Source: Achromobacter insuavis
GTDB taxonomy: Bacteria > Pseudomonadota > Gammaproteobacteria > Burkholderiales > Burkholderiaceae_B
Assembly (NCBI RefSeq): GCF_902859645.1
Contig: NZ_CADIJR010000054.1
Coordinates: 1 to 44,009, forward strand
Length of the DNA: 44,009 nucleotides
Reading direction: 5' to 3'
Part shown: positions 25,115 through 28,053 of the stretch, in pieces
Numbering within the stretch: position 1 is the stretch's first letter
Layout: each line of letters begins with the position of its first letter
Made by a program: the position numbers and the translations under genes
Notes under the pieces: generated by a model
Database searches by the model: none
Seen by the model: the letters and a program-made list of their open reading frames with translations, nothing else
Told to the model about the DNA's origin: nothing

Positions 25115-26422
25115 ATGGCATCAACCCACCCCTCGGCCAGCGCGCCCATGCGGGTCCTGGTATCCAGCACCTTCGCCTTCACCATCTGTTTCGCGGTATG
25201 GATGATCTTCGCGGTGCTGGGCATTCCCATCAAGACGCAGCTCGGCCTGTCCGAGACCGAATTCGGCCTGCTGGCCGCCATGCCGGTGCTGACCGGCTCC
25301 CTGGTGCGGGTGCCGCTGGGCATCTGGACCGACCGCTACGGCGGCCGCCCGGTGTTCTTCGTGCTGATGCTGCTGGCGGTGGTGCCGATCTGGCTGCTGT
25401 CCTACGCCACCGAGTATTGGCAGTTCCTGGTGCTGGCGCTGTTCGTGGGCCTGACCGGCGGTTCGTTCTCGGTCGGCACGCCCTATGTGGCGCGCTGGTT
25501 TCCGCGCAACAAGCAGGGCCTGGCCATGGGCGTGTTCGGCGCCGGCAATTCGGGCTCGGCCATCACCAAGTTCGTGGCGCCGGCGCTGATCGCCGCCGCC
25601 GGCGGCGCCTGGGTGATCGTGCCGCAGGTCTACGCGGTGGCCCTGCTGGTGACGGCGATCCTGTTCTGGCTGTTCTCGGCCTCGGATCCGTCGCACCGGG
25701 TGGCCGGCGGCGCCTCGCTGCGCGAGCAGATGGCGATGCTGAAGGACCCGCGCGTGTGGCGCTATTGCCAGTACTACTCGGTGGTGTTCGGCGGCTACGT
25801 GGCGCTGGCGCTCTGGATGACCAAGTACTACATCGGCGAATACGGCTTCGACATGAAGCTGGCGGCGCTGCTGGCCGCGTGCTTCTCGCTGCCGGGCGGC
25901 GTGCTGCGCGCCGTGGGCGGCTGGATCTCGGACCGCTACGGCGCCTACAAGACCACCTGGTGGGTGATGTGGGTGTGCTGGGTGGCGTTCTTCATCCTCA
26001 GCTATCCGCAGACGCACTTCACCGTCCTGACCACCGGCGGCCCGCGCCAGTTCGACATCGCCCTGGGCCCGACCAGCTTCACCATCCTGCTGTTCATTGT
26101 CGGCATCGCCATGGCCATCGGCAAGGCCTCGGTCTTCAAGTTCATCTCGGATGAGTTCGGCCAGAACATCGGCGCGGTCTCGGGCATCGTCGGCCTGGCC
26201 GGCGGCCTGGGCGGCTTCATCCTGCCGATCCTGTTCGGCGTGCTGCTCGACCTGACCGGCGTGCGTTCCAGCGCCTTCATGCTGCTGTACGGCACGGTCT
26301 GCGTCTCGCTCATCTTCATGCACTTCAGTTTCCGGCCCGAAAGCGCCGCCACCGCGCGGCGGCAAGCCGCTCAGGGCCTGTTCACACTGAAAGGAGCCTC
26401 GCATGAGCACCCAAATGAGTGA
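25115..26422 (+). CDS. narK1: Nitrate transporter NarK1
   Basis: This 435-residue MFS protein of the nitrate/nitrite porter family has twelve predicted helices. The nitrate-coordinating arginines of helices 2 and 8 lie in GSLVRVPLGIWTDRYGGRP and GGVLRAVGGWISDRYG, and the nitrate signature is GVFGAGNSGSAIT. NarK1 types usually act as nitrate/proton symporters, paired with a NarK2 antiporter as here. The last sixteen residues (from Gln420, QGLFTLKGASHEHPNE) are encoded by the inverted-repeat element starting at 26373, which also supplies the stop codon, so the natural C-terminus has been replaced or extended. These tail residues lie after the last membrane helix and should be tolerated. Confidence 0.93.
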   Translation: MASTHPSASAPMRVLVSSTFAFTICFAVWMIFAVLGIPIKTQLGLSETEFGLLAAMPVLTGSLVRVPLGIWTDRYGGRPVFFVLMLLAVVPIWLLSYATEYWQFLVLALFVGLTGGSFSVGTPYVARWFPRNKQGLAMGVFGAGNSGSAITKFVAPALIAAAGGAWVIVPQVYAVALLVTAILFWLFSASDPSHRVAGGASLREQMAMLKDPRVWRYCQYYSVVFGGYVALALWMTKYYIGEYGFDMKLAALLAACFSLPGGVLRAVGGWISDRYGAYKTTWWVMWVCWVAFFILSYPQTHFTVLTTGGPRQFDIALGPTSFTILLFIVGIAMAIGKASVFKFISDEFGQNIGAVSGIVGLAGGLGGFILPILFGVLLDLTGVRSSAFMLLYGTVCVSLIFMHFSFRPESAATARRQAAQGLFTLKGASHEHPNE

Positions 26423-26640
26423 CTATCAAGGCGCGAAGCGCAGACGTGGCAGGCCCCCGACGAGCATTCGCAACGACGAGAGGCGCTCATTTGGGTACTC
26501 ACCCTTCGGGCAGGCCGGTAATCGGCCGCCAGGCGTCGTTGCGCTCACCTTGCGTGGCACAGCCACGCGGCGGCGACCGCGCCTAGCCTGGCGGCCGATT
26601 ACCGGCCTGTGCGAGGCTCCTTTCAGTGTGAACAGGCCCT
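26373..26640. repeat. 268-bp cruciform-like element (MITE-like) between narK1 and narK2
   Basis: The ends 26373-26403 and 26610-26640 are perfect 31-bp inverted repeats (AGGGCCTGTTCACACTG at the left end). Directly inside lie two further stems: arm A (26404-26419 with 26486-26501, 15 of 16 paired) and arm B (26511-26534 with 26586-26609, 24 of 24 paired). The nine bases between the arms (26502-26510) form a CUUCGG mini-hairpin. The stems abut with almost no unpaired bases, giving a four-way-junction shape on a single strand. No ORF of note is inside. Flanking TCA and TAA could be remnants of a 3-bp TNA target duplication, as made by some IS5-group elements, but they are not identical. It looks like a non-autonomous mobile or dispersed repeat rather than a simple terminator. 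Confidence 0.85.
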
Positions 26641-26667
26641 AACCCCCGACCTCACCGGAGAAAACCT

Positions 26668-28053
26668 ATGTCTTCCCATGTCCTGGCGCGCTGGGAGCCG
26701 GAAAACCCCGGCTTCTGGAAACAGACCGGCGCCCGCATCGCCAACCGCAATCTGTGGATTTCCATTCCCGCGCTGATGCTGGCGTTCAGCATCTGGATGC
26801 TGTGGAGCGTGGTGGTGGTCAATCTCGACCGCGCCGGCTTCATGCTGTCCAAGAACCAGCTGTTCTGGCTGACCGCGCTGCCGGCGCTGTCGGGCGCCAC
26901 GCTGCGCATCTTCTATTCGTTCCTGGTGCCGGTGTTCGGCGGCCGCAAGTGGACCGCGATCTCGACCGCCTCGCTGCTGATCCCGGCGCTGGGCATGGGC
27001 TTCGCGCTGCGCGACCCGACCACCTCGTTCCCGACGCTGCTGATCCTGGCGCTGCTGTGCGGCCTGGGCGGCGGCAACTTCAGCTCCAGCATGGCCAACA
27101 TCAGCTTCTTCTTTCCCAAGGACAAGAAGGGCCTGGCCACCGGCCTGAACGCCGGCATCGGCAACCTGGGCGTGTCGCTGGTGCAGTTCGTGGTGCCGGT
27201 GGTGATCTCGATGGGCGTGTTCGGCGCCCTCGGCGGCGAGCCGCAGACCGTCACGGCGGGTGACGTGCAGCGCAGCCTGTGGCTGCAGAATGCCGGCTTC
27301 ATCTGGGTCATCCCCATCGCGCTGGCCTCGCTGGCCGCGTGGTTCGGCATGAACGACATTGCCGACGCGCGCGCCTCGTTCGCCGACCAGGCGGTGATCT
27401 TCAAGCGCAAGCACAACTGGCTGATGTGCTGGCTGTACGTGGGCACCTTCGGCTCGTTCATCGGTTTCTCGGCCGGCTTCGCCATGCTGACCAAGACGCT
27501 GTTCCCGCAGGTCGACCCGACCACCTACGCCTTCCTGGGCCCGCTGGTCGGCTCGCTGACGCGGCCGGTGGGCGGCTGGGTCTCGGACAAGCTGGGCGGG
27601 GCGCGCGTCACGCTGTTCACCTTCATCGGCATGATTGCCGCGGTGCTGGGCGTGGTGATGTTCCTGCCGCTGAACGGGCAGGGCGGCGACTTCAACGGCT
27701 TCCTGGCCATGTTCATCGTGCTGTTCGCGCTGACCGGCGTGGGCAACGGCTCGACCTTCCGCATGATCCCGGTGATCTTCCTGCGCGAGCGCACCCAGGC
27801 CGCGCAAGGCAAGGGCGAGGCCGCGCAGAAGCAGGCGCTGACCGACGCGGCGCGCGAATCGGCCGCGGTGCTGGGCTTTTCCGGCGCGATCGGCGCCTAT
27901 GGCGGCTTTTTCATCCCGCGCAGCTTCGGCACCTCGCTGGAGCTGACCGGCAGCGCCCAGGCGGCCCTGTATTGCTTCATCGGCTTTTACGCCACTTGCG
28001 TGCTGATCACGTGGTGGTTCTACGCGCGCCGCAACGCGCCCGTGCCCTGCTGA
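26668..28053 (+). CDS. narK2: Nitrate/nitrite antiporter NarK2
   Basis: This 461-residue porter has twelve predicted helices with the substrate arginines in GATLRIFYSFLVPVFGGRK and GSLTRPVGGWVSDKLGG, and the signature GLNAGIGNLGVSLVQF. NarK2 types mainly exchange nitrate for nitrite, removing the product of NarGHI. A long loop near residues 375-395 (ERTQAAQGKGEAAQKQALTD) is typical of this subtype. GGAG at 26657-26660 gives a good ribosome site. It starts 27 bp after the inverted-repeat element, which separates it from narK1. The narG promoter module begins 12 bp after its stop. Confidence 0.94.
   Translation: MSSHVLARWEPENPGFWKQTGARIANRNLWISIPALMLAFSIWMLWSVVVVNLDRAGFMLSKNQLFWLTALPALSGATLRIFYSFLVPVFGGRKWTAISTASLLIPALGMGFALRDPTTSFPTLLILALLCGLGGGNFSSSMANISFFFPKDKKGLATGLNAGIGNLGVSLVQFVVPVVISMGVFGALGGEPQTVTAGDVQRSLWLQNAGFIWVIPIALASLAAWFGMNDIADARASFADQAVIFKRKHNWLMCWLYVGTFGSFIGFSAGFAMLTKTLFPQVDPTTYAFLGPLVGSLTRPVGGWVSDKLGGARVTLFTFIGMIAAVLGVVMFLPLNGQGGDFNGFLAMFIVLFALTGVGNGSTFRMIPVIFLRERTQAAQGKGEAAQKQALTDAARESAAVLGFSGAIGAYGGFFIPRSFGTSLELTGSAQAALYCFIGFYATCVLITWWFYARRNAPVPC

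Follow-up and report, generated by a model that had tools for sequence, protein, structure and literature searches.

A dispersed 268-bp palindromic element of Achromobacter insuavis, probably a MITE of an IS5-family insertion sequence

The analyzed window, i.e. the whole stretch of 44,009 nucleotides of Achromobacter insuavis that was examined, carries a complete palindromic element of 268 bp (26373..26640, no strand assigned), delimited from its inverted arms, its fold, 36 aligned full copies and empty sites. It lies between two frames, narK1 (25115..26422, + strand) and narK2 (26668..28053, + strand). The narK2 frame is uninterrupted and encodes a nitrate/nitrite transporter of the NarK family, with 350.9 bits for TIGR00886, above the cut-off of the model. 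The product of narK1 is NarK-like: it matches the NCBIfam NarK model with an E-value of 1.7e-62 but with only 211.6 of the 311.7 bits of the cut-off. The names of the two flanking genes are those of the first-pass annotation. The narK1 frame has lost its native stop codon and runs on into the element, which provides its last 16 residues; close relatives, in the nearest loci compared, end the upstream gene with CAAGCCGCCTGA (RRQAA, stop).

The element is bounded by two terminal inverted repeats of 31 bp (left, 26373..26403, + strand; right, 26610..26640, - strand), which are complementary at 31 of 31 positions, as the first reading had noticed. The outer 18 bp of the left end (26373..26390, + strand; AGGGCCTGTTMACACTAA in most copies) and of the right end (26623..26640, - strand) resemble the ends of an IS of the IS5 family. 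The ends enclose (i) arm A (26404..26501), an imperfect hairpin whose stem base co-varies and whose apex is conserved in sequence, (ii) the mini-hairpin CCCTTCGGG (26502..26510, + strand), with a TNCG loop in 47 of the 48 distinct 268-bp copies, and (iii) arm B (26511..26609), which has a perfect base of 24 bp and a conserved apex, inverted in one copy from Bordetella ansorpii; neither arm is assigned a strand. If the TA is a target duplication, the element would rather be described as 266 bp (GGGCCTG..CAGGCCC) plus a terminal A and T that belong to the flanking TA dinucleotides. Its minimum-energy fold consists of the outer stem, arm A, the mini-hairpin and arm B, with zero unpaired bases at the junction. 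As RNA, the + strand folds at -190.4 kcal/mol compared to -109.3 for shuffled sequences (sd 5.4; z = -15.0), and none of 200 shuffles was as good; z is -15.7 for the - strand and -15.6 with DNA parameters. This fold confirms the nesting of stems without gaps that had been proposed, together with the mini-hairpin and the base of arm B (24 pairs out of 24), but the base of arm A pairs at 17 of 18 positions and not at 15 of 16.

The first-pass annotation had considered a dispersed structured repeat and had proposed to count its copies in related genomes. The element or pieces of it are indeed present in 27 of the 43 genomes of the genus, the window's own genome included (E-value of 1e-3 or better), and in 51 of 268 genomes of the family, distributed over 12 of 43 genera (E-value of 1e-6 or better). 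Its length is very constant: 35 of the 36 full-length copies of the first collection have exactly 268 bp, as do 51 of the 55 full-length rows obtained after addition of other genera (among which L306 repeats L121 and was removed only from the comparison of identical copies), although in some the identity to the window copy drops to 73-78%. Shortened variants were also found: those of 173 bp lack arm B, and in those of 185 bp a short stretch stands in place of arm A. The window's own genome (G000) harbors a second full copy (96% identity) and at least 14 short pieces bearing end-like sequence, and the genome G029 carries three identical copies at different sites.

The narK comparison included 30 narK2 loci, 29 of them from other genomes. 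The narK1-narK2 site is devoid of the element in all 29, including genomes that are 97-99% identical nearby, and the window copy is therefore recent; recent arrival was one of the two possibilities, beside active maintenance, that the first-pass annotation had drawn from the exact nesting. Restriction to a single locus with slowly diverging arms, which had been put forward as the observation that would argue against mobility, was not seen. Polymorphic insertion sites are also present elsewhere. Thus, cgact[268]aagcc in G031 corresponds to cgactaagcc in G029, and tacact[268]gggaat in G011 to tacactaggaat in three genomes, with one base changed. Copies of 39 bp have comparable junctions (gaattct[39]aggag and gaattctaggga; caaccct[39]aagc and caaccctaagc). 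The sites of G031 and G011 are the cleanest ones for the full-length element; many other sites gave no usable empty counterpart. The narK junction itself is unclean (empty, GCCGCCTGATCCCC; filled, GCCGCTC[268]AACCCCC), too much so to choose between TA and TNA as target, and further junction differences affect G011b, L030, L031, L135 and solo21, while L124 shows a net gain of 269 bp.

Among 53 distinct full-length sites, 43 have a T at position -1, 45 have an A at position +1 and 37 have both, leaving 16 sites without T..A. The target thus looks like TA, mostly within CTAG or CTAA, although a 266-bp element with a duplicated TA and an insertion at CT^AG without duplication would look identical in sequence. 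The TNA target proposed at first reading is accordingly corrected to TA; the +269 of L124 would fit TNA. Overall, these comparisons reveal a dispersed, recently mobile palindromic element of 268 bp that is found mostly at TA (mostly CTAG) and decays to short remnants. In the right flank of L126 and in the left flank of L131, a short palindromic remnant directly adjoins a full copy, which looks like a second hit on the TA or CTAG of one insertion.

The search for an IS partner started from weak Pfam hits in eight genomes, the fetched transposase loci being then scanned for end-like sequences. It identified an IS5-family IS of 828 bp in a congener (G019), present in three 100% identical copies, with the ends AGGGCGTGTTAACACTAA and AGGGCCTGTTAACACAAA and CT..A flanks. 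Its two frames match DUF4096 (E-value of 8.6e-22) and DDE_Tnp_1 (E-value of 7e-11); for the NCBIfam IS5 model NF033580 (transpos_IS5_3, cut-off of 110 bits), the second frame reaches 130.1 bits and the first one 102.8. Related ISs are carried by plasmids of Variovorax, Polaromonas, Cupriavidus, Caballeronia, Pseudomonas aeruginosa and Enterobacter cloacae (16 records, 11 of which cover 80% or more of the query at a single location), and the six plasmid ISs retrieved resemble it at their ends and are flanked by CT..AG. Both ends of the G019 IS are identical at 17 of 18 positions to the TTAACAC form of the element end. The 14 IS ends examined match the element end at 15-17 of 18 positions, each being compared with whichever of the forms TTCACAC and TTAACAC fits better, the weakest being the right end of the Caballeronia IS. 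The comparison with IS terminal repeats that the first-pass annotation had advised thus gave a positive answer for the outer 18 bp. Moreover, the ISs are flanked by CT..A at all eight distinct sites and by CT..AG at seven of them. The IS differs from the element by its size (828 bp in G019), by its transposase-coding capacity and by an unrelated interior: 15-19 bp are common at the outer ends, and interior matches are short and at chance level only.

The IS and the 268-bp element coexist in G019. No IS with such 16-bp ends located 0.5-3 kb apart (up to three mismatches, judged by eye) was found in G000, a draft of 199 contigs, or in G007, so that the presumed enzyme either is missing from the genome of the window or escaped detection there. 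When the 31-bp ends were searched in eight congeners and in the window's own genome (up to three mismatches), they framed 268, 173 or 160 bp and no autonomous copy. The sole wider pair, in G019, corresponds to a tandem duplication of 1,019 bp holding two copies of the element (L298, G019:C15:752000-755400; repeats at 507-1525 and 1527-2545). This duplication is exact, has an unread base at its joint and unrelated frames between the copies, and may be an assembly effect. Also in G019 (contig C25), L301 and L302 are two IS copies located 3.7 kb apart within a shared stretch of 2.9 kb (99.8% identity), i.e. within a duplicated segment.

The element has the size (268 bp) and the inverted ends (31 bp) of a MITE, contains no transposase gene but just short frames, of which the longest internal one shows no clear constraint, has ends in common with an autonomous IS and occupies a target like that of this IS (T..A at 37 of the 53 sites). 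We consider it very likely that it is a MITE of an IS5-family IS; the non-autonomous IS5-like mobile element proposed at first reading is supported by the dispersal, by the empty narK site and by the IS5-family ends. An IS5-type transposase would bind the ends of the element in trans, excise it and insert it at a TA, generating a 2-bp TA duplication. During replication, a chromosomal strand carrying the element could fold into a cross, and template switching of the polymerase between the arms would preserve their complementarity and occasionally invert an arm tip. Slippage between the direct repeats GGCCTGT located near both ends would delete 229 bp and leave a 39-bp scar. At narK1, the insertion removed the native stop codon and placed a large hairpin between the two nitrate-transporter genes. 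We read the element as belonging to a known kind, the IS5-type MITEs, and to a new family characterized by an unusually strict four-armed body and by a scar cycle.

The maintenance of the arms was analyzed on 28 rows chosen from the collected copies so as to avoid near-identical ones (alignment A1). In these distinct copies, 98.0% of the paired cells are standard pairs and 42 of the 110 pairs change on both sides, a result that none of 500 shuffles reaches; for the outer stem alone, 16 of 31 pairs change on both sides and 99.5% of the cells are paired. The two ends of one copy differ on average at 0.40 positions, compared to 4.16 between copies. In 47 copies, the outer stem and the base of arm B display 68 alternative Watson-Crick types, of which 38 are transversions, compared to eight types of G.T pair and 23 types of other mismatches, the share of G.T being, by our estimate, about that expected from random single changes (L119 was excluded from the G.T count and from the variability classes because of its inverted arm tip, and copies of other lengths than 268 bp from gap-free counts). 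The base of arm A shows the opposite, with nine G.T types and six mismatch types. In L119, from Bordetella ansorpii, the tip of arm B is inverted: it matches, at 96% identity, the reverse-complemented tip of two sister copies, and no other 268-bp copy has an inverted tip. Arm homogenization and spacer inversion are both described as products of template switching between inverted repeats, according to the consulted part of one study (PMC8604942). Since the arms co-vary mostly without G.T preference and one tip is inverted, the patterns point to hairpin events in DNA rather than to selection on RNA. The tips of the arms and the loop of the mini-hairpin keep their sequence, the apices being about as conserved as the ends.

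The strict length of 268 bp in several genera, the conserved tips and loop and the matching of the arms at the DNA level suggest a further reading, which we hold only tentatively and consider rather unlikely: the folded cross would itself be the functional unit, and movement or amplification would need the single strand in extruded form, both arms being rebuilt by fold-back synthesis in each new copy. If so, the substrate of this transposase would be a cruciform instead of plain double-stranded ends.

The short forms raise the question of which form moves. The window element carries the direct repeat GGCCTGT at 26375..26381 (+ strand, element position 3) and at 26604..26610 (+ strand, element position 232), and an in-silico deletion between these copies yields a 39-mer of the common scar form. 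The repeat is one base longer in L039, while the exact 7-base repeat was not found in L121 and L312, the two others of the three additional copies checked, which very slightly lowers our confidence in the main reading. In the collection, 43 distinct rows fit the 39-mer (at most one mismatch in the last eight bases), a number that falls to 37 after removal of six rows (L088, L092, L104, L105, L138 and L153) that end with CAGGCCCG and correspond to ends of longer or truncated copies; some of the 37 occupy orthologous sites. The 39-bp units might be the mobile form, and the 268-bp form a pair of 39-mers with captured arms. The empty sites of solo16, solo106 and solo9 are clean or nearly clean, and G000 contains nine 39-mer rows compared to two full copies, as expected if 39-mers moved by themselves. 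However, the 39-mer looks like what deletion between the GGCCTGT repeats leaves behind and contains only one full end plus 8 bp, and remnants of other sizes occur at orthologous sites: 268 bp in L056 and 146 bp in L267, 39 bp in L144 and 46 bp in L264, 268 bp in L029 and 27 bp in L224. Each of these pairs is read as decay in place of a single ancestral copy. We therefore judge independent mobility of the 39-mers improbable. Among the sites compared, none has a 268-bp copy in one genome and an exact 39-bp scar in another. L147 and L263 carry the 39-mer at the same site in opposite orientations in two genomes. In G007, two mini palindromes of 37 bp (C1:1108305-1108341 and C1:5700041-5700077) consist of two 16-bp end matches placed back to back and are perhaps a second kind of scar.

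Selection could also act on a conserved structured or regulatory RNA gene that would have spread secondarily. The compensated changes reported above would be expected from such a gene, as would apices about as conserved as the ends and the G.T excess at the base of arm A. UNCG is a stable tetraloop motif of RNA, and the TNCG loop resembles it. Nevertheless, selection on RNA should tolerate G.U, and G.T is not clearly favored in the outer stem and in the base of arm B (eight types versus 23); furthermore, both strands fold about equally well, and the element occupies different sites in different genomes. In Rfam, no family scores above threshold, the only match being MIR918 (32.5 and 29.4 bits, compared to the 268 needed), which we judge due to chance, and no sigma-70-like site was found in the region searched (26300-26720). 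Based on the lack of Rfam matches above threshold and on the G.T test, to which the base of arm A and the TNCG loop are opposed, an RNA family was set aside as very unlikely.

REP/BIME-like elements moved by a RAYT (Y1 HUH enzyme) were also considered, since single-strand excision 3′ of CT on a hairpin substrate would require no duplication. RAYTs cut after CT, which is found at most cut sites here, and the palindromic structure and the 39-bp short forms would suit such an enzyme. However, PF01797 (Y1_Tnp) is unmatched in five genomes bearing the element (G000, G007, G011, G040 and G018) and is matched in only 10 of the 43 genus genomes. In the 18 Y1 loci that were retrieved, end-like sequence matches at best 16-19 of 31 positions, compared to 13-20 in one shuffle each, so that no convincing ends were found, while the IS5 match accounts for the ends and for the target at once. 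Mobility by a RAYT is thus highly improbable. As for a small mobile gene encoding a 79-residue peptide with its own ribosome-binding site, the frame (26403..26642, + strand, ATG in the left end) is preceded by AAAGGAG at a fixed spacing, is open throughout in 49 of 55 rows (a count that includes L043, in which the frame is shifted but remains open) and shows a marginal excess of synonymous changes (92 versus 79.6 expected, P = 0.05), but the six nonsense changes observed come close to the 6.9 expected and pN/pS is like that of the antisense frame (0.69 versus 0.68), so that in the absence of clear constraint we read this frame as incidental and regard a protein-coding role as extremely improbable.

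Two other candidates were rejected. Mobility of the IS630/Tc1 type was discarded because an IS630-type transposase (DDE_3) was found in none of eight genomes. Carriage by phages or plasmids was set aside, since searches with the element gave no match in phage and plasmid collections, in which records near the window's genome may be absent, and since viral contigs contained no exact match to a degenerate 30-base end.

Several small palindromic repeats of bacteria resemble the element. As far as the consulted parts of their descriptions go, the Correia/NEMIS elements of Neisseria are small, with long end repeats (24 bp), TA ends, a target duplication and a strong fold (PMC2229807), and inversion has been reported for them (PMC10969869). 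Compared by description, they are shorter (about 107 and 155 bp versus 268 bp), and the four-arm plan is absent from the part of the account consulted (PMC2229807). ERIC/RU-1 is likewise described, in the parts consulted, as a palindromic repeat found throughout a family, the enterobacteria, with TA ends and an open frame, which may be located at the 3′ end of genes (PMC2229807, PMC2267715, PMC10969869), but it has 127 bp, a single long stem-loop and 7-bp end repeats, whereas the ends reported here are 31 bp long and the element has two arms and probably an IS partner. RUP from Streptococcus pneumoniae, with IS630-Spn1, provides in the same partial account another non-autonomous repeat with ends shared with an IS and a TA target, its partner belonging to IS630 and not to IS5 (PMC2229807). 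Bor-1 and Bor-2 of Bordetella are structured intergenic repeats of related bacteria; their models have 93-117 and 167 bp in the excerpt consulted (PMC2267715), and since they were compared by description only, they could have the same identity as the element. Literature searches by end-sequence strings gave no match, and no paper describing the element was recognized among the listings and abstract beginnings retrieved by subject. The element adds to the beta-proteobacteria a family-wide palindromic MITE with a likely IS5 partner. Furthermore, its many orthologous copies constitute a natural record of hairpin-driven change of bacterial DNA, i.e. arm matching, tip inversion and scar deletion.

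The element also touches genes. In the window's strain, it gave a nitrate-transporter-like gene a new end. The large hairpin between the nitrate-transporter genes may alter messenger processing, as can be supposed from the ERIC and Correia elements presented in the consulted parts of two accounts (PMC2229807, PMC10969869). In L053, a left-end remnant (1501-1537) provides the ribosome-binding site and the ATG of a 163-residue frame that starts at 1530 and encodes a glutathione peroxidase-like protein (NCBIfam E-value of 4.4e-54, below the cut-off of the model). On the reverse strand of L024 (G000:C139), a left-end remnant is located directly at the ATG (1531) of a 298-residue frame, which we take to resemble an ABC transporter permease.
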